Assembly (NCBI GenBank): GCA_016785955.1
Contig: JAEUWH010000011.1
Coordinates: 1-64,000, forward strand
Reading direction: 5' to 3'
Source of the DNA: Pseudobdellovibrionaceae bacterium
GTDB taxonomy: Bacteria; Bdellovibrionota; Bdellovibrionia; Bdellovibrionales; Bdellovibrionaceae
DNA: 64,000 nucleotides
In this document: piece by piece, positions 25,537-48,802 of the stretch
Position numbering within the stretch: position 1 is the first letter of the stretch
Layout: every line of letters starts with the position of its first letter
Made by a program: the position numbers and the translations under genes
The notes under the pieces: generated by a model
The model's input: only the letters and a program-made list of their open reading frames with translations
Databases searched by the model: none
What the model was told of the DNA's origin: nothing

Positions 25537-25583
25537 AAAATCGTTGAACTCTGGTGTTAATACGGATTATATGTAACCAAGAC

Positions 25584-27314
25584 ATGCCTAGTCAATTCCA
25601 ATTACGAAAAGCTTTGTCATTCATTTCGTCAGGTTCTCTGCTGAGAATTCTGATTGTGTGGCTGATCTGTCTAGTTTCCTTGCGGTTAGATAGCCTGACA
25701 GATTTTGACTTGCGTTTCCAAATTCGCGGAGACCGAAGTCCCGCCAAAGATATCGTCATCATCGAACTTAATCCTTCGGATCTGCGCCACTTCAATACCA
25801 GTGAAGTACAAGATTTAATGCTTTTGAATTCCTCCTCTAATATTTCTGACTCCTACTATTGGAATCCCCAACTATGGAATTCTCTTTTATTCGAACTCCT
25901 TAAATTGCAACCCAAAGTCATTGTGGTTACACTCGATCTTTTGCGTCAGGCATTTACAGAAAATTTGAATATGGGGCTTCTGAGTAACCCCAAGGTATCT
26001 TGGATTTACTCTAACGACCTAGACCCCTTGGGGTTAGAAAAAAAACGTCTACTCGATGTTTTAAATATTGAATTCGAAAAAGATGGCGTCGTCCGTCGTA
26101 TCCTACCAAACTCGCGGATGGGACCAGCACAATATATCAATTTTCAAGGGACTGAAAATCGTTTTTTTAAAATTTCATACAACCAACTCATCAGCAACGA
26201 ATGGCCACTGGATTTTTTTAAAAATAAAGTCATTATTTTAGGTGGCTTTACCAACACTGATTATGAATATATTACCCCGATGGGTCCATACGGTCGCAGT
26301 GCTTTAGTGGCTCAGCTCATGGAGAATAAAGTTGCTTCTCAATGGATTAAATCTTTTGGTTTTTGGACCCAAGGCCTATTTCTTTTACTTTTAATTTCTT
26401 TGATTTACTTCTCGACCATTTATTTACCCCGCAACATTTCAATTACGGTCTCGATGACAACTTTGTTTCTGCTTTTAATCAGCAATGTTTACCTTTTCGA
26501 CATTCATTACTTTTGGTTCCCGATTGTGTCCTCAGGACTTTGCGTATTTTTAGGCTGGTTGTCGGGTTACACTGTGCTAACAGGGAACATCGAAAAAACA
26601 AATTTTCAGTTACAAAAAGAAAGTGAAACGCGTACGCAGCTTGAACTCATGAAATCAAATTTTATCAGCTTGATTTCTCATGATCTTAAAAACCCCCTAG
26701 CTAAAATTCAAAGTGTTGTCGCGCGTAACTTGTCAACACAACCAAACGGGCTTTTAAGCCAAGATCTAACCGCTATACAAAAATACTCGGAGGAACTTGA
26801 TCATTATATTCGATCGATTTTAAACATCGCCCGGGTGGAATCAAAAAACATCAAATTAAATCGCATACCCAGCGACCTTAATGAATTGATCGAAACTAGT
26901 ATTGCGTCACTCAGACCTCTGGCTGCCGACAAAAACATTTCGATTCAAACAAATCTAACGCCATTGTTTCTGATTAACATCGATCCAATCTTAATAAAAG
27001 AAGCTCTGATTAATATCATCGAAAATGCCATCAAATATTCGCCCTCTCACACCGTCATTGAAATCAGAACTTTGGAGCTTGGCGAGCAAATCATTACGGA
27101 AGTTTGCGATCAAGGAATGGGGATTTCTGAAACCGAGCTTGGCAAAATGGGGCAAAAATTCTTTCGTTCAGAACTGGTGCCTGATAGCATCAAAGGCACT
27201 GGTTTAGGCTTTTTTTTGGTGAAGTACTTCGTCGAACTACATGCGGGCAATGTCGAGGTCTCCTCATCTCTAAATAAGGGTACGACCGTAAGAATCAAAT
27301 TGCCAAACTCTTAA
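25584..27314 (+). CDS. CHASE2 sensor histidine kinase
   Basis: About 576 residues from the ATG at 25584 (an upstream GTG is less likely). One membrane helix, then an extracytoplasmic CHASE2 domain (~25-250; LDSLTDFDLRFQIRG, IVIIELN, MGPYGRSALVAQLMEN). Three transmembrane segments follow (~255-350), then a HisKA/HATPase core: phospho-His in LISHDLKNPL, N-box NIIENAIKYSP, G1 CDQGMGIS, G2 GTGLGFFLV. It should sense an envelope signal and phosphorylate the regulator encoded 40 bases downstream. Confidence 0.9.
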   Translation: MPSQFQLRKALSFISSGSLLRILIVWLICLVSLRLDSLTDFDLRFQIRGDRSPAKDIVIIELNPSDLRHFNTSEVQDLMLLNSSSNISDSYYWNPQLWNSLLFELLKLQPKVIVVTLDLLRQAFTENLNMGLLSNPKVSWIYSNDLDPLGLEKKRLLDVLNIEFEKDGVVRRILPNSRMGPAQYINFQGTENRFFKISYNQLISNEWPLDFFKNKVIILGGFTNTDYEYITPMGPYGRSALVAQLMENKVASQWIKSFGFWTQGLFLLLLISLIYFSTIYLPRNISITVSMTTLFLLLISNVYLFDIHYFWFPIVSSGLCVFLGWLSGYTVLTGNIEKTNFQLQKESETRTQLELMKSNFISLISHDLKNPLAKIQSVVARNLSTQPNGLLSQDLTAIQKYSEELDHYIRSILNIARVESKNIKLNRIPSDLNELIETSIASLRPLAADKNISIQTNLTPLFLINIDPILIKEALINIIENAIKYSPSHTVIEIRTLELGEQIITEVCDQGMGISETELGKMGQKFFRSELVPDSIKGTGLGFFLVKYFVELHAGNVEVSSSLNKGTTVRIKLPNS

Positions 27315-27355
27315 ATATCTTCCTTTTAGGACAGCCTTTTGATAGTTTTTTGGCC

Positions 27356-28807
27356 ATGACAACAACTACAACTTTGAAGACTTTAATTGTCGACGATGAA
27401 CCAGAATTAAGAGAATCTTTAAAACATATTTTACCGACCTCTTTCCCTCAAATTAACTTTAAATTTAGCGAAGCTGTTGACGGCCAGGACGCCATCGATT
27501 CAATCAAATCTAATCACTATGATCTTGTATTAATGGATGTGAAAATGCCTCGGGTCGATGGTATTACGGCCCTCAAAACAATCAAGGCTCATGATCCACG
27601 AACATTTGTAGTTATTATGACCGCTCATGGAAATTATTCCGATGCTGTCGAAGCCATTAAGGAAGGCGCCTTTGATTACTTTCAAAAGCCAGTACAAAAA
27701 GAACAACTTTTTAAGGCTATCGATAGCTGCCTGAAAGCCCGTGAATTAGTCCTTGAACTCACCGCCTCAAATCCTATTTTTGATGACGACATTGATACTG
27801 AATTTGTAGGCAACTCGCACCAAATGCGAGAAGTTTTTCATATTATCTATAAATTGGCTAAGGTTGACACAACAGTTTTAATCCGTGGCGAGAATGGCAC
27901 TGGGAAAGAACTTGTCGCGCGCGCTATTCACCATAACTCGCTTCAGAAAAATGGCCAATTTGTCGCCGTCAACTGCGGCGCTATCCCTGAAAGTTTAATT
28001 GAAAGTGAATTTTTTGGACACGAGAAAGGGGCCTTCACAGGTGCCACAGAACGAAAAATTGGAAAGTTTCAGGCCGCTAATAATGGAACATTGTTCCTGG
28101 ACGAAATTGGCGAGCTAAAACCCGACATCCAAGTTAAACTATTACGTGCGATTCAGGATAAAGCCTTTACCCCAGTCGGCTCAGTACGGGAAGTGAAAAC
28201 CAATGTGCGTATTATCGCTGCCACCAATCGCAATCTGGAAAAAATGATTCAAGAGGGAAAGTTTCGCGAGGACTTGTTTTATCGACTGAATGTAATGCCG
28301 ATCTTCATGCCCCCGCTACGGGAACGACTAGACGATTTAGATAAACTGACTGATTATTTTATTAAAAAATTTAACAAAAAACAAAATCGTCACTTCGAGT
28401 CGATCGAACCTATTACATTATCACTTTTAAAAAAATATAAATGGCCCGGCAATATTCGTGAACTAGAAAATTTTGTTGAACGTGCCTTTATTGTCGAATC
28501 GGGATCTAAAATTACAAATGCCTCTCTAACCGAAGGCATGCGCACCCTACTTCCCACGTCTACGGTGTCTTTTCTGGCGAATCAAAATACTCTTCCCAGT
28601 GGACCCCATACTGAAGATACCTTTAAGCCTCTCGACTTTGATATTTTCAAAGAAGAAATGGAAAAAGATTTTATCATCAAAGCCTTGAAGCAAAACAAAG
28701 GACGGATCAATCAAACCGTTGCTAATGCGAACATTCCAAAAAATACACTCTTAAGAAAAATGCGAAAGTATGGAATCAACGTGAAAGATCTTGTTGAAGA
28801 GAAGTAA
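27356..28807 (+). CDS. Sigma-54-dependent NtrC-family response regulator
   Basis: A 483-residue regulator. Receiver domain with DDE and phospho-acceptor Asp61 (LVLMDVKMP). AAA+ domain with Walker A GENGTGKE (~180), the sigma-54-contacting GAFTGA loop and LFLDEIGELK. C-terminal Fis-like HTH (NKGRINQTVANANIPKNT) before the end. It pairs with the CHASE2 kinase upstream and probably activates sigma-54 promoters. A TTG two codons upstream is in frame, but the ATG at 27356 is chosen. Its targets cannot be seen here. Confidence 0.9.
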   Translation: MTTTTTLKTLIVDDEPELRESLKHILPTSFPQINFKFSEAVDGQDAIDSIKSNHYDLVLMDVKMPRVDGITALKTIKAHDPRTFVVIMTAHGNYSDAVEAIKEGAFDYFQKPVQKEQLFKAIDSCLKARELVLELTASNPIFDDDIDTEFVGNSHQMREVFHIIYKLAKVDTTVLIRGENGTGKELVARAIHHNSLQKNGQFVAVNCGAIPESLIESEFFGHEKGAFTGATERKIGKFQAANNGTLFLDEIGELKPDIQVKLLRAIQDKAFTPVGSVREVKTNVRIIAATNRNLEKMIQEGKFREDLFYRLNVMPIFMPPLRERLDDLDKLTDYFIKKFNKKQNRHFESIEPITLSLLKKYKWPGNIRELENFVERAFIVESGSKITNASLTEGMRTLLPTSTVSFLANQNTLPSGPHTEDTFKPLDFDIFKEEMEKDFIIKALKQNKGRINQTVANANIPKNTLLRKMRKYGINVKDLVEEK

Positions 28808-29850: not shown

Positions 29851-30999
29851 ATGACCTTAGTTCAACAGACTCAATTTACCATGCGAAAAAGCTCAAGACG
29901 GGTTCTTGGACTGTGTCTATTGCTATCTGTACTTACAATTTCATGCCAGAAATCAAACGATAGTTTTTCATTGCTCTCTGAACAATCAACCTTCCAACAG
30001 GGCACGTCATTTCAACCTAGAAAAATTGATATCCTATGGGTGATTGATAATTCAGGCAGCATGGAGACCTCACAAAATAATGTGATCTCAAATTTCAATT
30101 CATTTATTCAGCGTTTTAAAACACTCAACTATGATTTCAACATGGCGTTTATCTCTACCGACGCTTACCTGGACATCACAGATACGAGTGGTGCCTATAA
30201 AAATATTTACTGCCCCGCTTTTGACAAAAAATGCTCTGTTTTTCGGGACGGCCCCGGACGAAATCCAAATGCTCAGTACCATAGCGGCACACCAATAATT
30301 AGTCGCCTCACTCGTGACATCACATCAGTATTCAACCTCAATGCCGCTCAAGGAATCCAAGGTTACGGTGACGAACGTGCCTTTCAAAGTTTTAAAGCAG
30401 CCTTACAAAATCAAAACAATACGGGTTTCCGCCGCCCTGATGCCTATTTGGCAATCATCATCGTTAGCGACGAAGACGATTTTTCTCAAAATAATATGAC
30501 CCCCGCTTTGGAATCAATACCGAATAACGGCTATCTAAATGATAGTCGCCTACACTCGGTCAATAGCTATGTTCAGTTTTTGAATAACTACACACACTCC
30601 ACAGAAAATCTTAAAAATTATTCCGTAAGTGCAATCACCATTTTAGATCAAGACTGCCTAGCTAATTTAAATACGACATTCGCACGACGTCTAGGAACTC
30701 GGTACGTACAAATCGCCGATCAAACCGGTGGAACAAAAGCCTCTCTCTGCGGAAATTTTGGTGAATCCTTGCAGTTAATCTCTGACACCGTACTATCCTT
30801 GACGTCTGCATTTCGATTGGATCGAGAGCCCATCCCTGAAACTTTGGTGGTCATTGTCAACGGCGACATCGTATCCCAAGACGCCAACAATGGCTGGACG
30901 TATGATCCAAGTAACTTAACTGTTAATTTTCACGGCACCGCTATTCCCAACGCCGATGCCGCCATTAATATAAATTTTGATCCCGTGACCGTAAAATAA
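29851..30999 (+). CDS. VWA-domain lipoprotein, first gene of Agl/Glt-like operon
   Basis: About 382 residues. Basic N-terminus, hydrophobic core and ISC lipobox (Cys32). A von Willebrand factor A domain follows (~55-300): ILWVIDNSGSM carries the DxSGS metal site (MIDAS), with IVSDEDDFS as a further metal loop. A C-terminal beta domain closes the protein (LVVIVNGD to ININFDP). VWA domains bind proteins through a metal ion. A strong AGGAGG precedes the ATG. It is 12 bases upstream of the GYF-PilZ gene and so heads an operon of about 12.5 kb; the operon context suggests an outer-membrane or periplasmic contact role in the machine. Confidence 0.8.
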   Translation: MTLVQQTQFTMRKSSRRVLGLCLLLSVLTISCQKSNDSFSLLSEQSTFQQGTSFQPRKIDILWVIDNSGSMETSQNNVISNFNSFIQRFKTLNYDFNMAFISTDAYLDITDTSGAYKNIYCPAFDKKCSVFRDGPGRNPNAQYHSGTPIISRLTRDITSVFNLNAAQGIQGYGDERAFQSFKAALQNQNNTGFRRPDAYLAIIIVSDEDDFSQNNMTPALESIPNNGYLNDSRLHSVNSYVQFLNNYTHSTENLKNYSVSAITILDQDCLANLNTTFARRLGTRYVQIADQTGGTKASLCGNFGESLQLISDTVLSLTSAFRLDREPIPETLVVIVNGDIVSQDANNGWTYDPSNLTVNFHGTAIPNADAAININFDPVTVK

Positions 31000-31011
31000 T
31001 TAAGAGGAAAA

Positions 31012-31623
31012 ATGAATCAACAAGCCAATGCCCTAAAGAAGCAAGAATCCAAATGGTATATTTTGAGAGGCGAAAATAAATACGGCCCTTTCGAGTTCTC
31101 GACGATGATTAGTATGATTCAAAAAGGTGAACTTTTTGATTATAATTATATTTGGGCCGCCCACATGGAAGGGTGGCAGCCACTAGGTGAGGTCGAAGAG
31201 TTTTCAAAAGACCGCCTATCACTTATTATCAAAACCAAAGATCCTTTAAGTCATGCCTTCTGCCGCCGAGGAGCCGATCGCGCCGAAGTGACTATTCCTT
31301 TTTTTGGGCATAATGACGAATTTTTCTTCAATGGCCATCTCATTTCGATCAGTGTCAACGGAGCACTCATTTTAATAAACAATCCATTATTGTTACCCGG
31401 GCAAAAAGTTATTTTACACCTGTCACAAAACAACGTGAACGAAAAATCTTTTAATGTTCTGGCCCAGATAGTCCGAAAGAACTTCAGTAGGCAACGTTTG
31501 AACGTAAAGTCCGGTTTAAATTACGCAGTCAAATTTGTAGAAACGCCGGGATGGGCGATGAAACAAATTGAAGATTTAGTTGCCCTCTATCATCAAGTCA
31601 ATGCAGTGAACGCAAAGGAGTAA
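31012..31623 (+). CDS. GYF_2-PilZ domain protein
   Basis: A 203-residue cytoplasmic protein. Residues ~15-65 match a GYF_2 domain (WYILRGENKYGPFEF, then WAAHMEGWQPLGEV), a protein-interaction module. Residues ~80-195 resemble PilZ: an Arg-rich start (RRGADRAEV) and the xSxxG motif SISVNGALI, the two elements that bind cyclic di-GMP, then a barrel. It lies between the VWA lipoprotein and the aglR-like gene, five bases before the latter. It could bring c-di-GMP control to the motility machine. Binding is inferred from motifs only. Confidence 0.78.
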   Translation: MNQQANALKKQESKWYILRGENKYGPFEFSTMISMIQKGELFDYNYIWAAHMEGWQPLGEVEEFSKDRLSLIIKTKDPLSHAFCRRGADRAEVTIPFFGHNDEFFFNGHLISISVNGALILINNPLLLPGQKVILHLSQNNVNEKSFNVLAQIVRKNFSRQRLNVKSGLNYAVKFVETPGWAMKQIEDLVALYHQVNAVNAKE

Positions 31624-31628
31624 ATGGC

Positions 31629-32321
31629 ATGGGACAAATGTTTGAATTTTTAAAGGAGGCAGGGTTTTTCGGGGTGATGATCGTGATCACCGGCTTTATC
31701 TCGATATACTTTATCGCTGAACGTATCAAAGTCTTATACTTTGACTATGGAATGGATGTAAAAGATTTTTCCCAACGTATTCACTCTCTCATCGTTTCTA
31801 AGAAACTTGATGAAGCCCTGGTCTTAAGCGCTCAGTTGGAAAAAAAACCAATGGCCCGCGCCTTTAAGACGATCTTGGAAAAAGCCGATCGCGATGACGA
31901 GACAATTTTTCAAGCCCACGACAATGCTATGAGCGAAATCATTCCTTTGTATACAAAAAAACTTCATTACCTAAGCATGCTGGCCAACGTTGCTACTATG
32001 ATCGGTCTTTTAGGAACTATTTCTGGTCTGATCACCTCTTTTAAAGCGGTTTCAAAAGCTGATGCCGCCCTAAAGCAACAATTGCTCTCCAGTGGTATCG
32101 CGGAATCGTTAAATACGACGCTGCTTGGTCTGGTGGTAGCAATCCCCGCGATGGTATTTTTTTCGATTTTGTCTTCACGACAAAATCAACTCATCGAACA
32201 AACAACAGAAAAATGCGGAAAATTGACAGAGGTCTTAACCTCTTCACATCTACCTCAATTGACTCGTCAGAATGTTTTCCCCGATGCGCTTCCCCCCAAC
32301 CCTAGCGCGAAGGTTTCATAA
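31629..32321 (+). CDS. aglR: MotA/TolQ/ExbB-type proton channel (AglR-like)
   Basis: A 230-residue inner-membrane protein of the MotA/TolQ/ExbB family. One helix near the N-terminus (~12-32), a cytoplasmic loop, then two helices with the hallmark MIGLLGTISGLI (~120) and LNTTLLGLVVAIPAMVFF (~160). With two ExbD-like proteins encoded next it forms a proton-driven stator. In Myxococcus the AglRQS set powers gliding by the Glt complex; here the following TPR, FHA-AgmX and barrel genes support that reading. The symbol is assigned by context. Confidence 0.82.
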   Translation: MGQMFEFLKEAGFFGVMIVITGFISIYFIAERIKVLYFDYGMDVKDFSQRIHSLIVSKKLDEALVLSAQLEKKPMARAFKTILEKADRDDETIFQAHDNAMSEIIPLYTKKLHYLSMLANVATMIGLLGTISGLITSFKAVSKADAALKQQLLSSGIAESLNTTLLGLVVAIPAMVFFSILSSRQNQLIEQTTEKCGKLTEVLTSSHLPQLTRQNVFPDALPPNPSAKVS

Positions 32322-32333
32322 AGGGAGTCAATC

Positions 32334-32870
32334 ATGGGAATCAAAAAATTCCGCACACATTACGAAGAGTTTGAGCTGGACCTGACACCACTACTGGCGA
32401 TCATCATGAAGCTAGTTCCAGTACTGGTCATCTCGTCCTCGTTTTTACAACTCACACAAATCGACACCGAATTGCCTCAAATAGTTAAACAAGCCATCGA
32501 AAACCAAAATCAGAATCCAGATAAAGTGGCACAAATTCGTTTGCAAGTGGAAGACAATAAATCCATCAACGTGAGCGTGACTAAAGCAGGTACAACAGAA
32601 ACACTGTCGATCGCGGCCGAAAATAATTCCCTTAATTTGAACGCATTAAATACCCAGCTCGTGGAAATTAAAAAGAAAAACCCCGAAGTCTTCAAAATTG
32701 AATTGGCACCGAATGATGCACTTACATACAACGAGATCGTGACCATTCTGGATGGATCTCGCAAATCAAACTCTAATGAGGAATTTACGTTCGTGGATCC
32801 AAAAACTGGCAACGAAGTGAAAACAGATTTCCTGTTTCCCGAAGTCGTTTTTAATAACATTTTTCAATAG
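32334..32870 (+). CDS. ExbD/TolR-like stator protein lacking the channel Asp (AglQ/S-like)
   Basis: A 178-residue single-pass protein: short cytoplasmic N-terminus, helix ~18-39 (TPLLAIIMKLVPVLVISS), then a ~135-residue periplasmic domain. ExbD/TolR proteins carry a membrane Asp in a TPLxD motif that moves protons. Here the motif is TPLLA, so Ala22 replaces it, and Lys26 lies in the helix. The neighbouring paralogue keeps the Asp. It may be a structural partner in a heteromeric stator. Thirteen bases follow the aglR-like gene. Confidence 0.78.
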   Translation: MGIKKFRTHYEEFELDLTPLLAIIMKLVPVLVISSSFLQLTQIDTELPQIVKQAIENQNQNPDKVAQIRLQVEDNKSINVSVTKAGTTETLSIAAENNSLNLNALNTQLVEIKKKNPEVFKIELAPNDALTYNEIVTILDGSRKSNSNEEFTFVDPKTGNEVKTDFLFPEVVFNNIFQ

Positions 32871-32876
32871 GTCGTT

Positions 32877-33368
32877 ATGGCAAGAAGAAAACGGTATACA
32901 CCACAAGTTCCAAAAAAAACCGGCATCATGGTGAATGTGACGTCTCTGACAGATATGTTCACAGTTATCCTTGTTTTCCTCCTTCAAACATATAACACCT
33001 CGGAAGTACAAATCGAACCTCCCAAAGATCTGCGCGTGCCAACGTCACTATCGGAAGGAGTCTTGACTCAAGGTCTGGAAATGACCCTCAGCAAAGACTC
33101 GCTCCTATTAGGTAAAGAAGTCGTGGCTCAGATCAGAGACGGTGATCTGGCGCAAAACTCTAAGGACTCCAAAGATCCTAATTTTATCCCGGCACTTTTT
33201 GAATCCTTAGAAAAAACGTCTAAGGACTCTACCGTGAAAGCCGTGAAAGATGGTCAGATTCTGTTGATCGCCGATCGCGAGCTCTCCTATGCGATTATCA
33301 AAAAGGTGATGTACACAGCATCAATGGCGGGATTTCCACAAGTTAAACTCATTACATCGAGTCAATAA
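32877..33368 (+). CDS. ExbD/TolR-like stator protein with channel Asp (AglS-like)
   Basis: A 163-residue ExbD/TolR family protein. Basic N-terminus, helix ~18-38 with NVTSLTDMFTVILVF, where Asp26 is the expected proton-carrying residue, and a periplasmic domain of ~120 residues. It should act with the AglR-like and AglQ-like proteins as the motor of the Agl/Glt-like system. Its stop overlaps the start of the 1222-residue TPR gene by one base, so expression is coupled. Confidence 0.8.
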   Translation: MARRKRYTPQVPKKTGIMVNVTSLTDMFTVILVFLLQTYNTSEVQIEPPKDLRVPTSLSEGVLTQGLEMTLSKDSLLLGKEVVAQIRDGDLAQNSKDSKDPNFIPALFESLEKTSKDSTVKAVKDGQILLIADRELSYAIIKKVMYTASMAGFPQVKLITSSQ

Positions 33369-36300
33369 TGTTTAAAACTGTTATCACTCTTTTCCTGTTC
33401 GTCTCCCTTGCCGTTGTCGCACAAAAAAAAGATAGTCGCGGCCTACTACCCGAACTCAATACTCAAAAAAGTTCAGAACAAGAAAGTGAGTCTCAAACTT
33501 TAAAATCTGAAGTTCTGATTTCTAAAACTGAAAATAAAGCCATCGAAGCTCTGCAAAATATTTTGAAAAAGAAAAAAGGCACCGCCCAAGAAGCCGACTT
33601 ACTAAACCGCTTGGCCGAATTGTACATGAGGAAATCAAAATCCGGCCGTTTCTTTGATCTACAACGGACGAGTAACAAAAAAACAATTAGCTCGTTCCCT
33701 ATCGCACAAGAAAATGGCGCTGAATGGTTAAGAAAAGCAATTACAATATATAATCAAATTTTGGCGCAACATCCAAAATTTAGTGAAACCGACAGCGTGC
33801 TATTTAATTCCGCGTTCGCGTATCAACAACTGAATCAAAAGAAAAATTCAGAAATAAACTACAAAGCCCTGATTGACCGATTTCCTAACTCGTTAATTGT
33901 TCCTGATTCGCTTTTAGCATTGGGAGAACTTCTTTACGATCAAGGACGCTTCAGTGAAGCCAAAGTTCATTTCGAAAAAATTGAAAACTATCCGGACTCA
34001 CGCGTCTATGTCTATGGACTCTATAAACTGGGTTGGGCCTACTACAATTTGAAAAATTCGTCGGATGCGATAAAAAAATTAAAACTCGTCGTAGAGAAAA
34101 ATCCACCGCAAGTCGAAGCCAGTAATAAACGTGGTTACTATCTGCGCAAAGAAGCGATTCGCGATCTTGTACTTTTTATTGGCGAAGTTTACCAAGCAGA
34201 AGATCTGTACGACTTTTTTAAGGCCATCGTGACAAACGAAGAACTTGGTCCTGCCCTGTTTGACATGGCCAAACTGTATGATTCCTATTCCCGGTTGAAA
34301 GACATTCACATATTTCTTAACGAGTTTATTAAAAAAGAGTCCGACAATTTATATGTCGTAAAATCTCATATTCTGATGGCCGAAACCTACGAAACTCTAA
34401 AAAAACGCGATCAGGTGATCGCCGAACTAACCTTCGCCGGTGAAGATTGTGCGATTGGTTCGACCTGGCGCCAAAGTCAAACAGGCGAACAGATCGAGGA
34501 AATCTGCCAAAAAGACTTTAAACGAGTCAGCCTAGATCTCACTAAAAAATGGTGGGAAATCTGGCAAAAAAATAAGACCCACAAAGAATTTTCGATACTG
34601 ACGGAAACCATTCTGAAATTGATTATTAAAAATGAAGATCCCACAAATCCCGACTTAAAAACTCGTACGATCTTGGCCGAACTGCAATTCCAAATCGAAA
34701 AGTTCGAGGACGCATCCACGAATTACTATTTCGTTGCGTCTCACGCCAAAGACAAAAAGGAATCCCACGATGCCTTATACGCCAGTCTTTTCTCGGTCGA
34801 GAAAGAACTTGAAATTAAAACATCTGAGAAAAAGAAAGATCAACGTAAACAGCGAGCCATCGAATACTATACACGATTTCCTCAAGGCGAGCACTTTTTT
34901 CCAGTCGGCCTCAAAGTGGCTGTTATTTACTACGAAGAAAAAAACTATACGGACGCGCTCAAGGTCCTCGCTATCACCGAGAACTCTCAAGAAGACCTTA
35001 CCGTTCGTGCTAAATCACAAGACTTAGTTTTAGATATCTACAATATTCAAAAACGTTACACGGACTTAAAAAATCTTTCAGCCCTTTACTTAAAGGAATC
35101 TAAAGATGACACTCGCACTAAATCTTTAGTGAAAATTAATGAAGAATCTCATTTCTCAGAAATTCAGCTTAAAAATAAAGACTTAAAACCACTTGAACAA
35201 ACCACCAACTTGGTGAGCTACTTTGAATCTCACAAAGGCTCGGAGCTGGGTATGCGAGCCCTACTCGATGCTCTTAAAATTTATCTAGAAAATAAAAGTT
35301 TGGGTAACTTTACTGACTCCGCCGAAGAGTTATTAAAGCGCTACCCTCTTTATGACAAAAAAACTAACTTGATTAAGGACTTGATCAACTCCTACACAGA
35401 TTTGACAAACCTTAAAAAAGCCGGCGAATGGTCGCTGAAATTGGCTGCGATGGAAAAAGGAAACAAAAATCTCTATACCGAAAATGCCGCCGATCTGTTT
35501 TTACTTGAAGGACAGAATAAGGAAGCCCGCACAATCTATCAACAGCTTTTGAATGAGTCTCCTAAGGACAAACGCATTCAACTGTTTGCTAAGATCAAAT
35601 CAACGTTAGATAGTTCCAAAGACCAGCAGGAAATCCAAAAAATTAATGGTATAATCTTGGAATTAAATATCGAACCCTTCGCAACCGAAGTCCTTACCGA
35701 AAAAGCGACTCGTTTCTACAACGATAAAAACTATAAAGACGCCTTTGAATTGACGATGAAGATCTTAAAACGTGACTCGGCCAGCGAACACCGAGCCAAA
35801 GCGCGTTTTATTCAAGGCCAAATTTTGGAACAAGAATATTTTGCCCAAAGCATGAAAACATCTAAAGAAGAACGCTTGGCTTTAATTATTCAGTTGAAGA
35901 CAGAGCGTTTAGAAAAAGCCCAAACGGCCTATTTAAGCGTGACCAAAATGACCAACTCGGCCGAATTGGTCAAAAGCAGTTTTGAAGCGATTGATCGTTG
36001 TTATGCCCACTACATCGAATCGCTAAGCACTATGCCTTTGCCTGAAACTTTATCTGCGAATGAACAAAATGAGTTACGTGGTGAGATTAAAAAATTGCTT
36101 GTTCCTATTGAGCATAAACGCAAAGAAAACTTGAGCGCAATCGGTGGTGAAATTCGCGGCGTGGCGGCCATACCAAATTCTACCTCATGGGTCGATGCCG
36201 CAGCAGAAACAAGTACTGGTATTGAACTGGGAAATAGATATGGATCCTTCTTGACCTTGGTCATTCCCAAAACTCCGGCGCGAGAAGGCATTCGGTTATT

Positions 36301-37036
36301 TTCCCTAAGTGATGTTTCCGACTGCCGTAAAGATGCCAAAGACATCAGTTTGGCGCTGATTTACAGCTGTGCCGAGAAATCTCGTATTGATCAAGCCGAG
36401 ATTTTTGCCAATCAACTGGCCAATAAAGAAAGCTCGTTGGAGTTAATTCAATGGGCTAATGCATTTTTAGCTTTCAAAAAAGAACAGTATCTTAAAGCCC
36501 AATGGATCTTTGAAAAAATGCGGAAAGAAACACAAAACAATATCGGCCTCATCGATTACAATATTGCCCTCTTAAAGGAAAAAGCTAAGACGAATACCAC
36601 CGTGGAGGTAAGTCTTGACTCTCTGGCAAACCTCAATGACGAAGATTCATTTATGGGTCTATACAGTCGATTTCTTTTGTCCTACAAAAGCAAAGATTAT
36701 AAAAAAATTGATTCCATCCACTCTCGTTTAATGAAACAGCGTGAATATACCGAGAATGCAGCTTTACGGGAATACTTAATTCCATTGATCGCAGAAAGCT
36801 TGTCTCAAGTCGAGAACACCGAAAAAGCAATCAAAACGCTGGATTCCTTACCGGTAGCCCAGTGGAAAAATCCAGACGTATTGTATTTTTCAAAAGCACG
36901 TATCTATGAAGTGTTTAAGAATTCGACAGAACGTGCGATATATTTTTATGATTTAGCTAATAAAGAAACTAGACTCGCCGATAAGAAATCGTGGCTAGCA
37001 AGGAAATTGGATTTCTTAAAAACTAAGAAGCATTAA
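33368..37036 (+). CDS. Large periplasmic TPR protein (GltD/AgmU-like)
   Basis: A 1222-residue exported protein. Signal peptide ~1-18 (FLFVSLAVVAQ). Most of the chain is made of TPR-type helical repeats, for example LFNSAFAYQQLNQKKNSE, ALGELLYDQGRFSEA, YKLGWAYYNLKNSSDA near 150-240, and ARFIQGQILEQEY near 815. In Myxococcus a large TPR protein, GltD/AgmU, forms the periplasmic scaffold between the Agl motor and outer-membrane Glt proteins; size and position agree. It is the longest gene of the operon. Sequence identity to GltD has not been tested. Confidence 0.75.
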   Translation: MFKTVITLFLFVSLAVVAQKKDSRGLLPELNTQKSSEQESESQTLKSEVLISKTENKAIEALQNILKKKKGTAQEADLLNRLAELYMRKSKSGRFFDLQRTSNKKTISSFPIAQENGAEWLRKAITIYNQILAQHPKFSETDSVLFNSAFAYQQLNQKKNSEINYKALIDRFPNSLIVPDSLLALGELLYDQGRFSEAKVHFEKIENYPDSRVYVYGLYKLGWAYYNLKNSSDAIKKLKLVVEKNPPQVEASNKRGYYLRKEAIRDLVLFIGEVYQAEDLYDFFKAIVTNEELGPALFDMAKLYDSYSRLKDIHIFLNEFIKKESDNLYVVKSHILMAETYETLKKRDQVIAELTFAGEDCAIGSTWRQSQTGEQIEEICQKDFKRVSLDLTKKWWEIWQKNKTHKEFSILTETILKLIIKNEDPTNPDLKTRTILAELQFQIEKFEDASTNYYFVASHAKDKKESHDALYASLFSVEKELEIKTSEKKKDQRKQRAIEYYTRFPQGEHFFPVGLKVAVIYYEEKNYTDALKVLAITENSQEDLTVRAKSQDLVLDIYNIQKRYTDLKNLSALYLKESKDDTRTKSLVKINEESHFSEIQLKNKDLKPLEQTTNLVSYFESHKGSELGMRALLDALKIYLENKSLGNFTDSAEELLKRYPLYDKKTNLIKDLINSYTDLTNLKKAGEWSLKLAAMEKGNKNLYTENAADLFLLEGQNKEARTIYQQLLNESPKDKRIQLFAKIKSTLDSSKDQQEIQKINGIILELNIEPFATEVLTEKATRFYNDKNYKDAFELTMKILKRDSASEHRAKARFIQGQILEQEYFAQSMKTSKEERLALIIQLKTERLEKAQTAYLSVTKMTNSAELVKSSFEAIDRCYAHYIESLSTMPLPETLSANEQNELRGEIKKLLVPIEHKRKENLSAIGGEIRGVAAIPNSTSWVDAAAETSTGIELGNRYGSFLTLVIPKTPAREGIRLFSLSDVSDCRKDAKDISLALIYSCAEKSRIDQAEIFANQLANKESSLELIQWANAFLAFKKEQYLKAQWIFEKMRKETQNNIGLIDYNIALLKEKAKTNTTVEVSLDSLANLNDEDSFMGLYSRFLLSYKSKDYKKIDSIHSRLMKQREYTENAALREYLIPLIAESLSQVENTEKAIKTLDSLPVAQWKNPDVLYFSKARIYEVFKNSTERAIYFYDLANKETRLADKKSWLARKLDFLKTKKH

Positions 37037-37096
37037 CGGGTTAGCTAAAACAACTCTGGTATGTAAGCAGCTGAATAATGTTTAAGGAAGGACGCA

Positions 37097-37345
37097 ATGA
37101 AAGCTTATTTATTCTTGAGTTTTGCTTTAGTTGTCATGTCGATACCGGCATTTTCACAATCAAAAAAAAAGGTCGTCAGGAAAGTTCAAGAAGTTAACTT
37201 CTCGGAAATGAGCATAAAGGGGACCATCCGTAATCCTGATGGGGCATTCCTTGTGCAAAAAAAAGGTATTAAGTTTATGCCTTTGGTCGACGTCCAAAAA
37301 AACATGGATAAAAAAATTAGAGACGCTAGCTTTTATGTGAGATAA
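37097..37345 (+). CDS. Small exported protein of the Agl/Glt-like operon
   Basis: An 82-residue protein with a signal peptide ending FSQS (~20) and a short Lys-rich mature part containing DGAFLVQKKGIKFMPL. No family is recognised. AAGGAAGGACGCA precedes the ATG. It is 3 bases upstream of the FHA-AgmX gene. In Myxococcus a small protein, GltF, is encoded at the matching place in the glt cluster; this may be its counterpart, by position only. Confidence 0.65.
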   Translation: MKAYLFLSFALVVMSIPAFSQSKKKVVRKVQEVNFSEMSIKGTIRNPDGAFLVQKKGIKFMPLVDVQKNMDKKIRDASFYVR

Positions 37346-37348
37346 AGA

Positions 37349-38809
37349 ATGAAGCAATTATTTATAGAGCAATATACGAAAACTGGTGAAAAGAAAGTCT
37401 GGAAGCTCTCGGGAGATCGGGGGCAATATACTTTTGGCTCGTCCCGCACCGCTGACATCGTTTCTATCGATCAATCCGTAGAACTTTGGGAAGGCGTTTT
37501 TGAATTCAGAAACGACACTTGGAACTATGTGTCTCTAAACTCAAAATCATTTAAAGCCGATACCCGCCCTTTCGAATTTCAAGACTCAAAAGGAGAAGTA
37601 TTCTTTAAAGCTTCTCATATGAAACTCTCGATTATTTCTAAAAATGTCGAATTGAATCGTTTTCGTATCGAGCCGGTGAGTGGAACTAAAAACGCTAAAA
37701 AATTTCAAGTGTATCAAGTCTGCATTGAAGACCAAATTGTGGAAACGCAAATTTTACCATTTTCAAAAAAATACAGTTCACGAAACATCCCCAGTATTCA
37801 GAAGATGGAGCCTATTCCCTCTTCGTCTTGGCATGTTTCTAAGTATGGTGAATTTACTTTAAAGCAAAAAACTATTGAAGTAGAAAAACCCTCACACTTG
37901 TTTTTCATGAAGCTTGAAGATTTTATCGAGCGCGATTCTGTCATGGGAATTCTGTCCGTCGCCATTTTGAGCACGATCTTCATGATCAGCTACATCTTGA
38001 TTCCCAGAACAGAAACCTATGTGCCCGTTTCAAAAAAAGCGACAGCCCGCATTCTGGTCACTCAGCCAGAGTTGCCTAAAAAGGAAAAAAATAAAGTCGC
38101 CGTAAAAGACGAAACCCAAAAATTAACTGCCCCCATCGAAAAGCCTAAAGAGGACGGCGGTGGCGACGCTCAACCGTCAAAAAATAAAGTCGCCGGCATG
38201 TTGAAAAATCTAAATACAGGCCGCATCTCTTCCCTGCTTTCAAAGGTATCCAGCCAAGGACAACGATCTAAAACGGTTGTGGTTTCTGACGGTGTCTTGG
38301 CAGGCAGTGCTCCGTCAGGTCGCGCCCTGGCTAGTTTAGGGAAAATCGAAAAGTCGGGAACCGATTGGAGCCAAGACAACGGATCCCGAGGTTTCAAAAT
38401 TTCAACGAACGGTATTGGCGGTGGTAAAAATGTCGGCAATTTCGCAGCACTTTCTGGCGGCAAGGTCGGTAAAGGCGGCGTGGGTCTGATCGAAGAAGAA
38501 AGCGATGTTGTGGGCGGTTTGGACCGCGAAGAAATAGCCAGTTACATTCGTACTCAACTGGGACAAATTTTATATTGTTACGAGCGTCAGTTATCTGCCA
38601 ACAAAGATCTATTTGGTAAGGTGTCTGTAAAATTCACGATCAGTGGCACCGGCAAGGTCGAGACCCAGACTGTTAATGATACGACTTTAAAAAATACGAC
38701 TGTCGAAGGATGTATGCTGAATAAAATTGCGAGCTGGAAATTTCCGGCTCCCCGAGGCGGAACAAAGGTCATCGTGACTTATCCGTTCTTGTTTAAGAGC
38801 ACTAACTAA
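37349..38809 (+). CDS. gltG: FHA-TM-AgmX/PglI domain protein (GltG-like)
   Basis: A 486-residue inner-membrane protein with the GltG layout. N-terminal FHA-like cytoplasmic domain (~15-95; YTFGSSRTADIV and WNYVSLNSKS), weak in the phosphothreonine-binding residues. A transmembrane helix at ~197-218 (MGILSVAILSTIFMISYI). A Lys/Pro/Gly-rich periplasmic linker (~230-390). C-terminal AgmX/PglI-type, TonB-like domain (~395-486; YIRTQLGQILYCYERQL, GKVETQTV, CMLNKIASWKFPAPRGG). It probably reaches from the motor across the periplasm to outer-membrane partners. Confidence 0.82.
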   Translation: MKQLFIEQYTKTGEKKVWKLSGDRGQYTFGSSRTADIVSIDQSVELWEGVFEFRNDTWNYVSLNSKSFKADTRPFEFQDSKGEVFFKASHMKLSIISKNVELNRFRIEPVSGTKNAKKFQVYQVCIEDQIVETQILPFSKKYSSRNIPSIQKMEPIPSSSWHVSKYGEFTLKQKTIEVEKPSHLFFMKLEDFIERDSVMGILSVAILSTIFMISYILIPRTETYVPVSKKATARILVTQPELPKKEKNKVAVKDETQKLTAPIEKPKEDGGGDAQPSKNKVAGMLKNLNTGRISSLLSKVSSQGQRSKTVVVSDGVLAGSAPSGRALASLGKIEKSGTDWSQDNGSRGFKISTNGIGGGKNVGNFAALSGGKVGKGGVGLIEEESDVVGGLDREEIASYIRTQLGQILYCYERQLSANKDLFGKVSVKFTISGTGKVETQTVNDTTLKNTTVEGCMLNKIASWKFPAPRGGTKVIVTYPFLFKSTN

Positions 38810-38843
38810 TTTATTAACCACACGCAGTATCACGGGAGGATAT

Positions 38844-39647
38844 GTGGCATACTATCAATCGACAATGACAGCTCTGCTGCTTTGCTTTGGACTTGTCTTT
38901 TCATCACCAATTTTATCTTGGGCTCAAGATAAAAAAGAAGAACCCAAGAAAATCGAAAATGTGGATTCTGACAAGTTAGATATCCAAAAATTAGAACAGA
39001 AGTACTGGTCAGCAAAAGATGATGATTTCAGCGTTATCCAAAACCGCGCCTTCCCGAAAGAAAAGCGGGTCTACTTGTCCGCAAATTATGGAGTTCCATT
39101 CAATGACCCCAATTCCGTCGGCAGCTTAACCGGAGTTAACTTGGGTTACTTTTTCAACGAAAGGTGGGGTTTGGAGCTTGGTTACACCAACTCGAACTTT
39201 AAATTTAACGATACCGTTGACTACTTTAAAAAAGAATACGGCGTCCTTCCCGACCACAACACGTTCAAATCCGCACAAACTTTAATGGCCTACTGGGTAC
39301 CCATTTATGCAAAAATGAGTTTAATGGATAAAAAAATTATCTATTTTGACATGGGAATCGGTCTAGGAGTTGGAACGACTACATATGAACAAAACTCGTG
39401 TACCGTGAACGCTGTATGCAAATCCGGAACAGGCTTAAATGGCATCACCAAAACATCACAAACCTCGTCACACTATGCGTTTTCTATCATGCAGCAGTTT
39501 TTTTTAACGCAAAACTGGGCGATCCGTGTCGATTTAATCAATCGTTTTACCGACGAATCACGTATTAGCTCGCGTAACGAACAAAGTATTGGATCTAAGA
39601 TGGTGAATGATACCGCATTACAATTCGGTGTAACATTTTGGAAGTGA
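38844..39647 (+). CDS. Outer-membrane beta-barrel protein (GltH-like)
   Basis: A 267-residue protein. From GTG at 38844, which has a close GGGAGGATAT site, there is a signal peptide ending SWAQ (~28); an ATG at 38865 is an alternative. A charged helical stretch (~30-70) is followed by a barrel-like region with strands YLSANYGVPF, LGYFFNERWGLELGYT, IIYFDMGIGLGVG and FGVTFWK at the C-terminus, as expected for barrel assembly. It is of the outer-membrane barrel type that accompanies AgmX proteins. Position next to the GltG-like gene supports GltH. Confidence 0.76.
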   Translation: MAYYQSTMTALLLCFGLVFSSPILSWAQDKKEEPKKIENVDSDKLDIQKLEQKYWSAKDDDFSVIQNRAFPKEKRVYLSANYGVPFNDPNSVGSLTGVNLGYFFNERWGLELGYTNSNFKFNDTVDYFKKEYGVLPDHNTFKSAQTLMAYWVPIYAKMSLMDKKIIYFDMGIGLGVGTTTYEQNSCTVNAVCKSGTGLNGITKTSQTSSHYAFSIMQQFFLTQNWAIRVDLINRFTDESRISSRNEQSIGSKMVNDTALQFGVTFWK

Positions 39648-39653
39648 GAAAAA

Positions 39654-41717
39654 ATGAAATCTATTAAAACTTTGACATTAGCACTTACCGCATCCTTTTT
39701 GGCCTATGGGCAACTGGACATTGTTGCCAAAGGACAAGCCCCTTCGCGCAAACTTACGATCAAGAAATCAAAAGTTCCGTCGTTTAATTTCCAACCAGGC
39801 CAAGATATCCCACGCTTGGATATCGGGACCGAGAACGAATTGGCACACAAAGAGTCACTCCTGAATCTTGCCCAATGGAAAGTTCAAAATGAAAAAATTC
39901 GTAAACTGAATATCGTAAAACCCTTCGACGTCGACAAAAAGATTTTGACTATTCCTGGATTAAATCCTGCTAAAATGATTTCAACCGTAAAAACGACAGC
40001 CGCAATTCCCACGATTGAACCACTAAAAGAAACATACAACCCAAGCTTGACCGAGCCAAACGTTGCGTTGAAAGACATCATTCTGTTCAAGCCCCAAGAA
40101 TTTAAATTACTAGAAGGGCAAATCTATTTCGAAAATATTAAAAATTACGAAATGGCCCTGGCACATTTCGGTGAGTTATTAAAAGATAAAGAATTCAGTT
40201 TAGAGGCTCACTACCACTATGGTTTGACAGCAAAAGAATTGAAGCTGTTTTCTGAATTCAAGAATGCTTTAGTCAAAGTCTCGGGCCAAGCAAAAGCCAA
40301 AGACCTTAAGCATTGGGCCATTGAAGAACTTGTGAAAGGTGTCGCATTGTTAGAGATTAACGATATTGGCGACATCGATCCATTGATCGAAAGCGCCGAG
40401 TTTGATGCCGACAAGTATGACGCTTATCAATTTTATCGCGCCAAATACTATCTGGAAAAAGGAAACCTGACCGAAGTCGAAACCGCACTATCATTAATTC
40501 CTGAAAAATCAGAATTCTATCCCGAGTCTCGTTTTATCGCCGGTCTTTCCAAATATCGTCAGGGAAAAATCTCGGAGGCAGAAACATACATCGAAGACGT
40601 TTTGAAAAATGCGCAGTCCCTACCCGCCATCCAAACGTTAGCGGCGTTGACTCTTGCACGCATTCACTTTCAAAAGCAAAATTATAAGGAAGCTCAGAAA
40701 TTATATCTTAGTGTACACAAAGATCATCCGCTTTGGTTGCAAGCCATGGTCGAGTTAGCTTGGACACAAACTCTGATTAATGACTATGAAGGTGCTGCTG
40801 GCAACATGTTTTCACTGCATACTGATTTCTTCAAAAATGCCTACAACCCAGAATCGTATGTGGTTAGAACCGTCAGCTATTTGAATCTTTGCCAGTTCGG
40901 AGACAGTCTGCAGGTCTTGACAGCTTTGGGACGCAAATACGCGCCTTATTACGGGCGCATTGAAAACTATATGTCCCAAAGAAAAGACGCCGCTGACTAT
41001 TACCAAACAGTGCGGTCTTGGTTGAAGAACCCAGAACAAAAAGAAGTCGACGGCGTTCCCCGATCATTCGTAATCGAACTCGCTCGGCACCCATCTTTTA
41101 TCACAGTACAAAAAGACATTAATCGCCTAGAAGATGAAATTACTGCGTTTAATCACGTCTCTCTTAATCTCATTCAGAGAGAAAAAGATTTGATCAAAAA
41201 GCAATCGTTACTGAGCCAAGAGTTAACACATGTTCGTGCCGGATTGCTAGATCCCAAAAAGAACAAAGATCTTCTAAAAGAAGAAGAGCAAACAATTTTA
41301 AAGAAATTGCAGAGCTTCAAATACCAGCAACAAGGTTTCAAAGCCGCACGTGATGTAATCAAAAACATCCGTGATATTTCGTTTGCACGAATCGACAAAG
41401 ACAAATCTAAACATCGCACCCGCGCGGGCGTAGTATTAAAGGATCGACTGGCCCAGTTAACGAATGACTTAAAAGACTTACTAGATCAGAACGAATTGCT
41501 TCAATACGAAGTCTATTCGGGCGCCGGTGAGCACTTACGATTCCAAGCCGTCAGTCAAGAAGTCAAAGGCGACGATCCTAAAACTCGAGAGCTTGCTCAA
41601 GCTCAACTAAGTAAAGAAAAAGACAAGAAAGTAAAATGGAACTTTCAAGGCGAAATCTGGGAAGACGAGATCGGCCATTTCCGTTCATCGTTAAAAAATG
41701 TGTGCGCACAGGAATAA
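39654..41717 (+). CDS. Exported TPR protein of the Agl/Glt-like operon
   Basis: A 687-residue protein with a signal peptide (~1-20). The middle (~155-440) holds TPR-like repeats such as YEMALAHFGELLKDKEFSLEAHYHYGL, FIAGLSKYRQGKISEAETY and ARIHFQKQNYKEAQKLY. A coiled-coil segment follows (~480-600; EDEITAFNHVSLNLIQREKDL). It is 6 bases after the barrel gene. It may be the GltE-like TPR partner of the complex, but it carries no lipobox, so that is uncertain. Confidence 0.74.
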   Translation: MKSIKTLTLALTASFLAYGQLDIVAKGQAPSRKLTIKKSKVPSFNFQPGQDIPRLDIGTENELAHKESLLNLAQWKVQNEKIRKLNIVKPFDVDKKILTIPGLNPAKMISTVKTTAAIPTIEPLKETYNPSLTEPNVALKDIILFKPQEFKLLEGQIYFENIKNYEMALAHFGELLKDKEFSLEAHYHYGLTAKELKLFSEFKNALVKVSGQAKAKDLKHWAIEELVKGVALLEINDIGDIDPLIESAEFDADKYDAYQFYRAKYYLEKGNLTEVETALSLIPEKSEFYPESRFIAGLSKYRQGKISEAETYIEDVLKNAQSLPAIQTLAALTLARIHFQKQNYKEAQKLYLSVHKDHPLWLQAMVELAWTQTLINDYEGAAGNMFSLHTDFFKNAYNPESYVVRTVSYLNLCQFGDSLQVLTALGRKYAPYYGRIENYMSQRKDAADYYQTVRSWLKNPEQKEVDGVPRSFVIELARHPSFITVQKDINRLEDEITAFNHVSLNLIQREKDLIKKQSLLSQELTHVRAGLLDPKKNKDLLKEEEQTILKKLQSFKYQQQGFKAARDVIKNIRDISFARIDKDKSKHRTRAGVVLKDRLAQLTNDLKDLLDQNELLQYEVYSGAGEHLRFQAVSQEVKGDDPKTRELAQAQLSKEKDKKVKWNFQGEIWEDEIGHFRSSLKNVCAQE

Positions 41718-41726
41718 GGAGCTTTT

Positions 41727-42362
41727 ATGAAATGGATATCACTTATATTGTTTATCTCGTCTTTAACCACGTTCGCCAAACCGAACAGTGCCGAGACGCT
41801 AGCTAAAATTAAATCCAATATCGACAATGCCAAATTGAACCTGGACGACTACAAAAAGAATCTTGGTATGGTGGAAAAAAATCTACAGGAAGTCGCCAAG
41901 GCCAAAAAAGAAGCCGACGATCAGAGAAAACAGGTCGCAAGCTCTTTGAAAGAAAACCAAACTTCAATGAAAAAAGTCGAAAATAACGAGAAAGAGCTGC
42001 ACAACTTGCTAAGCGACGAGAAAAACAAACTGGCGGCCGAAGATAAAAAGATCAAAGAGCTTGACGATTTGATCGCCAAAATTAAAGACAACCAAGTGAA
42101 ACGCAACGCCAACATAAAAGACTATGAAGCCCAATCGATTCAGATCGGCGAAGAGAAAAAACAGTGGAGCACCCGGATTCAAAGCTTGAAGGACCAAGAA
42201 AAACAAGTCGCCGATAAGTTGAAAACAATTTCGCAGCAAGACAGTGAGTGGAAAAATAAAAAACGCGGTTATGAAGGCGAAATCACGCGCTGGAACAAAG
42301 AAATCGACAAACAACAGAAAACTTACGACAATTTTAAAAATATGGCAGAAGTTAAAGAGTAA
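41727..42362 (+). CDS. Periplasmic coiled-coil protein
   Basis: A 211-residue protein with a signal peptide (~1-18, ending TFAK) and an almost continuous coiled coil to the C-terminus, with heptad-like Leu/Ile/Val spacing and many Lys and Glu residues. No family is recognised. It is 9 bases after the TPR gene and precedes a hairpin, so it is the last gene of the Agl/Glt-like operon. A rod-like scaffold role is a guess. Confidence 0.72.
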   Translation: MKWISLILFISSLTTFAKPNSAETLAKIKSNIDNAKLNLDDYKKNLGMVEKNLQEVAKAKKEADDQRKQVASSLKENQTSMKKVENNEKELHNLLSDEKNKLAAEDKKIKELDDLIAKIKDNQVKRNANIKDYEAQSIQIGEEKKQWSTRIQSLKDQEKQVADKLKTISQQDSEWKNKKRGYEGEITRWNKEIDKQQKTYDNFKNMAEVKE

Positions 42363-48412: not shown

Positions 48413-48802
48413 CTAGCGAGCGGCTACGTAACTTCGGATTTGTCGTTTATTAGAAAACGGCATTTGATTAAAGGAAAGACCGATATTCAATTGTCCGTCA
48501 ATCTTTGAAGAATGGCGAATGGTCGCACGCACGCTGACAAAATCACCTCTAGGAATTTGCATATTCACGACACACTCAGCATCGTTATCTAGAACAACTT
48601 CTGAAACAAAAGACAGTCCCCCTTCGGAAATCTCTACCGACTGCATCGTGACGTAATGCCCACGATACAAAATGCTGATTAATCGTTTATAGGATTTACG
48701 AGGAAATTTACGTAAATTTTCTGCATCGACATTTTCTTTCATCACATCTTTTATCGGCAGAACTTGATCACATGACACTGGGACAATGGTCGAGATTTCC
48801 AC
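48413..48802 (-). CDS. PilZ-domain protein
   Basis: A 129-residue single-domain protein. The PilZ motifs are seen in order: RKSYKR (RxxxR) at ~35 and VEISEGGLSF (xSxxG) at ~57, then a six-strand barrel with NIGLSF near the end. These two elements bind c-di-GMP in the family. It has its own position, not in an operon with the pil or glt genes, 67 bases before the convergent-free end of holA. A general c-di-GMP effector is likely. Confidence 0.82.
   Translation of the reverse strand: MEISTIVPVSCDQVLPIKDVMKENVDAENLRKFPRKSYKRLISILYRGHYVTMQSVEISEGGLSFVSEVVLDNDAECVVNMQIPRGDFVSVRATIRHSSKIDGQLNIGLSFNQMPFSNKRQIRSYVAAR

Follow-up and report, generated by a model that had tools for sequence, protein, structure and literature searches.

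Eleven closely spaced genes in the window, by which we mean the whole 64,000-nucleotide stretch analyzed, raise the question of whether a member of the Bdellovibrionaceae carries a gliding motor with its own surface grip and its own second-messenger control. A preliminary description of the sequence had likened the genes to the Agl-Glt gliding machine known from Myxococcus and found in Bdellovibrio, and had read the two genes at the head of the operon, for a VWA lipoprotein and a GYF_2-PilZ protein, as a sign of built-in c-di-GMP control and surface contact. A 2026 review describes the Bdellovibrio gliding motor, adhesin and force path as still to be identified and as a major open challenge (PMC13104615). 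Taken as a whole, the locus is best explained as a proton-driven gliding motor with a VWA grip and a GYF_2-PilZ clutch, a reading to which we give a probability of roughly 0.6.

Gene content of the operon

All 11 open reading frames were confirmed at the place described, on the + strand (29851-42362), with intergenic gaps of −1 to 60 bases and an AGGAGG upstream of the ATG at 29851. Searching the whole window with Rfam found two tRNAs only and no riboswitch upstream of the operon, and promoter- and terminator-like sites were no more frequent than the chance level. Upstream, at 25554-28807, lie genes for a membrane sensor kinase (CHASE2-like by eye) and then an NtrC-type response regulator.

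The first gene (29851..30999) encodes a VWA/MIDAS lipoprotein, a candidate surface adhesin with a CglB/CglD-like role, and the second (31012..31623) a cytoplasmic GYF_2-PilZ protein that is a candidate nucleotide-responsive motor regulator. They are followed by an AglR-like proton channel of the MotA/TolQ/ExbB kind (31629..32321; Pfam MotA_ExbB, 2e-26), which has a C-terminal tail with prolines, and by two ExbD/TolR-like motor subunits (32334..32870, ExbD 3.6e-14; 32877..33368, ExbD 1.5e-12); this channel with a pair of ExbD-type subunits next to it is the arrangement expected of an Agl/Glt machine. The sixth gene (33368..37036) encodes a periplasmic protein of 1222 aa, one of the operon proteins in which Pfam finds TPR repeats. 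It had been described as a TPR protein, which holds, and alignments refine this, in that it corresponds to both GltD and GltE of Myxococcus. In families f2 and f4 the two are separate, a GltD-like protein of ~1000 residues and, after it, a GltE-like lipoprotein of ~305. The window protein aligns with the former over its own residues 1-924; in most family orthologues it is residues ~965-1200 that align with the separate lipoprotein. The C-terminal part of the window protein itself gave no direct match to GltE, and we infer its GltE part because orthologues that can be aligned with it over the full length match the separate GltE, making the protein a probable GltD-GltE fusion.

Next comes an 82-aa exported protein (37097..37345) with the position and size of GltF (89 aa); it has no Pfam match, and its orthologues at the same place in the operon are 57-90% identical. 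The GltG-like transducer (37349..38809) joins a degenerate FHA domain, a TM segment and an AgmX/PglI (TonB-like) C-terminal domain, with NCBIfam matches to GltG (1.8e-34, residues 244-485) and to the AgmX/PglI C-terminal domain (9e-32). The FHA-TM-AgmX layout given to it earlier is sound for the AgmX/PglI domain, but the FHA is invisible to Pfam and is seen only in a profile-profile comparison with the FHA of a paralogue (hhalign E 5e-7). A single outer-membrane beta-barrel gene of the GltA/GltB type, not two, follows (38844..39647; TIGR04565 OMP_myx_plus 6e-20, above cut-off), and then a GltC-like periplasmic TPR protein (39654..41717; NF033756, 1e-37, below the NCBI equivalog cut-off of 450 bits). 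Equivalog cut-offs were not reached for GltC or GltG, and the two are relatives of these families, not NCBI-grade equivalents. The last gene (41727..42362) encodes an exported coiled-coil protein for which no Myxococcus counterpart was identified; in longer stretches it is kept near the operon end in other genera and families too. Judged by the profile matches to GltC, GltG, AgmX_C and OMP_myx_plus, which bear out the relation proposed earlier, the operon is an Agl/Glt-type envelope motor operon.

Compared with the Agl-Glt system of Myxococcus xanthus (AglRQS, GltA-K, CglB), the window shares an AglRQS-type motor, GltC, GltD, GltE, GltG, a GltA/B-type barrel and possibly GltF, and the genome has an MglA-like gene assigned by sequence features (L153:1315-1908). 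It differs in being one operon where Myxococcus has three clusters, in the fusion of GltD and GltE, in that no GltJ was found, in a GYF domain that belongs to a PilZ protein, and in a MIDAS lipoprotein encoded within the operon itself.

In the number, order and kind of its genes, the operon is the counterpart of Bd1473-Bd1483 of HD100, a strain we know from published descriptions. Both have eleven genes, and the HD100 operon includes the MIDAS lipoprotein Bd1483, the PilZ protein Bd1482 at its 5′ end, AglR (Bd1481) and AglQ (Bd1480), the first three being the counterparts of the first three window genes. The same gene order is found in B. bacteriovorus kdesi (L079) and is also conserved in Bdellovibrio sp. 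qaytius. The window, however, belongs to another genus of the family, with identities to kdesi of 46% for the VWA protein, 54% for the PilZ protein and 64% for AglR. A PilZ gene at the head of this operon is not a new observation, since Bd1482 was noted at the operon's 5′ end in 2012 and proposed as the receiver of the DgcA signal for gliding (PMC3271064). The operon is of a kind already known in HD100; the details that appear new are the fusion, the relation of the GYF domain to GltJ, the PilZ motif, the AglR tail and a repeated VWA and GYF-PilZ pair.

The VWA and PilZ genes beside aglR

Relatives of the PilZ protein were found in 159 of 192 genomes in a phylum-wide search. The VWA-PilZ-AglR-ExbD arrangement is retained in 28 of the 30 best loci, all from the window's family, the exceptions being one genome with the PilZ gene alone (G005) and one without the VWA gene (G189). 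In longer stretches, seven genera of the family have the complete set of eleven genes in an unchanged order, and this recurrence across genera excludes chance. In an eighth genus (G189) only the VWA gene is absent, and of the eleven G086 has just genes one to six. Among 38 loci from other families of the order, 31 have a GYF_2-PilZ gene within the stretch fetched around aglR, and some (families f3, f5, f6, f7 and one f2) have a VWA gene there. The associations of the VWA and PilZ genes with aglR, as first described, are both real, and the PilZ one is more widespread. A motor, a transducer, a candidate adhesin and a cytoplasmic sensor protein co-travel across many genera, and residues and a peptide can be named for mutation. 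The locus in G005 (L065) represents a family genome in which the GYF-PilZ gene was kept and the motor operon lost.

The VWA gene matches the NCBIfam MIDAS adhesin model (3.2e-14) and Myxococcus CglD (7.8e-8), and its lipobox cysteine (C32) and DxSxS are invariant in the 25 orthologue rows compared. An AF2 model (pLDDT 84) has integrin beta headpieces as its nearest PDB folds (E 2e-10, TM ~0.4). The integrin-like fold and the invariant residues make the proposed surface contact plausible, although deletion of Bd1483, the lipobox MIDAS protein of HD100, leaves prey invasion normal (PMC11003981). Transposon mutants of strain 109J in the counterparts of Bd1481 (aglR) and Bd1483 were weaker in predation on thick biofilms (PMC2277423).

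There are about nine VWA genes of this kind in the genome, three of them in or beside Glt clusters (the window, C65 and C40). Another, on contig C123, overlaps a second GYF-PilZ gene and has a product homologous to the window VWA protein over about its full length (5e-23), and VWA plus GYF-PilZ therefore form a repeated pair. This second gene (L111:9084-10882) encodes two GYF domains and a PilZ domain with the motif ExSxxG, overlaps the VWA lipoprotein gene by 4 bases and, unlike its relative in the window, has no motor genes adjoining; from gene content, the pair probably corresponds to Bd3100 (pilZ) and Bd3099 (VWA) of HD100. The third GYF_2 plus PilZ protein of the genome (L155:1756-2448) also has no motor genes adjoining, and the genome search gave a further PilZ-domain protein, a short ORF, in the window itself at 48422-48715 on the − strand.

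The GYF_2-PilZ protein and the AglR tail

Pfam recognizes both halves of the window protein (GYF_2 3.5e-13, PilZ 2.6e-8), and the profile of its family hits GltJ of Myxococcus (AgmX, 7z3c) in its GYF domain at E 5e-5. No GYF_2 match in the genome falls on an AgmX-tail protein, so that no GltJ was found there, and GltJ is reported absent from HD100 too, as are GltH, GltI and GltK (PMC3169522). The separate GYF protein may be a functional stand-in for GltJ.

In the PilZ domain, RxxxR is intact (R86, R90), but the second ligand motif reads S112xS114xxG117 and not the canonical (D/N)xSxxG. Ser occupies the Asp/Asn position in 51 of 52 sequences of the family, and Glu does so in 22 of 32 from outside it. 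Because the motif residue is replaced in this way, c-di-GMP binding cannot be assumed, and the built-in c-di-GMP control read from the locus earlier loses ground; such control by the PilZ protein is unproven and, given this motif, less certain. It is possible, at somewhat under even odds, that the domain no longer binds c-di-GMP and is structural or takes another ligand such as 3′,3′-cGAMP; besides the Ser and Glu replacements, the expression of gliding genes in HD100, which depends on cGAMP made by Bd0367 (PMC9140294), would fit this. On the other hand, RxxxR is nearly invariant, as are the motif's Ser and Gly, the four divergent family members have Asn at the position in question, and the modeled fold resembles c-di-GMP-bound PilZ structures.

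Among PilZ structures, MotI/DgrA ranks first against the PilZ part in the model of a tethered relative, a ranking that is weak evidence as a pointer to function. MotI acts on MotA in Bacillus. Like MotI/DgrA and YcgR, which are PilZ clutches on flagellar MotA or the rotor, the window protein has a PilZ domain and a gene next to that of a MotA-family channel; it differs from them in having a GYF domain in place of YcgR_N and a non-canonical ligand motif, and its action on the channel is a hypothesis.

A conceivable contact point lies in the operon's AglR, which has a cytoplasmic tail of variable length ending in PP-x(2-6)-K-[VA]-S. Of the 15 further MotA/ExbB homologues that the AglR profile found in this genome, 13 were read, and none of these has the tail. 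The two prolines of the tail use all four synonymous codons, which places the selection on the protein. We hypothesize that the GYF domain docks on this tail. Genome G122 lacks the PilZ gene between VWA and AglR, and its AglR has the tail cut off; of the family loci, 33 combine the tail with a PilZ gene, one keeps PilZ but no PP, and one lacks both, a sample too uneven and too closely related for a test. A competing explanation, which we rate as credible while leaning slightly against it, is that the tail is not a GYF ligand and serves translation, stability or another partner, its conservation coming partly from an mRNA hairpin at the stop codon. Such a hairpin, with the stop in its loop and using the K-[VA]-S codons, is strong in about 10 of the 27 loci read, and outside the family the PP tail and a nearby PilZ gene are unassociated (19 loci with both, 12 with PilZ only, 5 with the tail only and 2 with neither). 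The tether model, an AF2 prediction of the artificial PilZ-AglR read-through of L097 with the stop codon as Gly and a shallow five-row alignment, reached a mean pLDDT of 65 and left the AglR tail disordered (pLDDT below 50), with no docking. Yet the Pro-Pro codons take every synonymous form, loci without the hairpin, the window included, retain the motif, and G122 lost tail and PilZ gene jointly, all of which count against this explanation. The hairpin lies between aglR and the first exbD and could govern how many channel subunits are made per ExbD subunit. It was seen in L079, L080, L082-L086, L095 and L097, and downstream of aglR in L148; there is none in the window.

Gliding or another use of the motor

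At the level of homology, the operon is shown to encode an AglR-type channel with two ExbD-type subunits, a GltG-type transducer of the inner membrane, GltDE and GltC in the periplasm, a GltA/B-type barrel, a MIDAS/VWA lipoprotein and a GYF_2-PilZ protein. In the mechanism that we favor, protons flowing through AglR would power the GltG arm together with the ExbD subunits, the force would reach the outer membrane by way of GltC/GltDE and the barrel, and the surface would be gripped by the VWA lipoprotein in the manner of CglB, producing slow surface gliding; in Myxococcus, CglB grips the surface during gliding. More tentatively, GYF_2-PilZ on the cytoplasmic side could be a cyclic-dinucleotide-sensitive clutch replacing the cytoplasmic GYF of the missing GltJ, and its GYF domain may bind the proline-containing tail of AglR, much as MotI acts on MotA. 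The family matches, the conserved order, the HD100 literature, the GYF-GltJ relation, the MglA-like gene, the MotI/DgrA fold, the joint loss of tail and PilZ gene and the adjacency of VWA genes to two further Glt clusters and to the second GYF-PilZ gene all favor this reading. Counting against it are a cluster elsewhere in the genome that is closer to Myxococcus Glt, the absence of a detected GltJ, the lack of association between tail and PilZ outside the family, the disordered tail in the AF2 model and the PilZ gene without a motor in G005.

A more specific proposal is that GYF_2-PilZ is a 3′,3′-cGAMP receptor that clutches the motor through GYF on the AglR tail, linking Bd0367 to gliding while standing in for GltJ; we consider this a long shot. 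The unusual ligand motif would allow a cGAMP effector to be tested directly. Should AglR indeed be a target of the PilZ protein, the control of MotA-family motors by second messengers, known from flagella, would reach gliding machines too.

The motor could also be of the Glt type without moving the cell. Nfs-AglRQS functions in Myxococcus sporulation. By analogy with it, or with a TonB-like system, the operon would move or install surface polymers or proteins in a particular growth phase. The genome has six Glt-type clusters (the window, two on C117, and one each on C65, C40 and C41), and the four operons of this kind in HD100 (Bd0412-0420, Bd0828-0838, Bd1473-1483 and Bd2368-2377) differ in expression, the eleven genes of Bd1473-1483 being down at 30 min of predation and up in host-independent growth (PMC2797640). 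These points would suit a non-locomotive role, as would a closer match to Myxococcus elsewhere in the genome: the first C117 cluster (L022), of the HD100 Bd0828-0838 type, is a motor cluster of the same kind and the nearest to Myxococcus Glt (GltG 205 bits over its full length, GltC 187, GltE 96), and the window copy could therefore be doing other work. Bd0828-0838 is also the published best gliding candidate (PMC3169522). We nevertheless regard a non-locomotive role as the less likely reading, since bd1480 (aglQ) is surface-induced and lower in mutants of the gliding regulator Bd0367, a cGAMP-making enzyme (PMC9140294), and a putative adhesin gene stands first in the operon; gliding with a VWA grip and a GYF_2-PilZ clutch is the reading that we retain.

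The first C117 cluster also differs from the window operon in having a separate GltE, an intact FHA in GltG and an AglR without the tail, and no PilZ gene lies within the stretch read. Adjoining the second C117 cluster is a gene for a PilZ protein of 443 aa in which the RxxxR and DxSxxG motifs are both canonical (L023:9802-11133, − strand).
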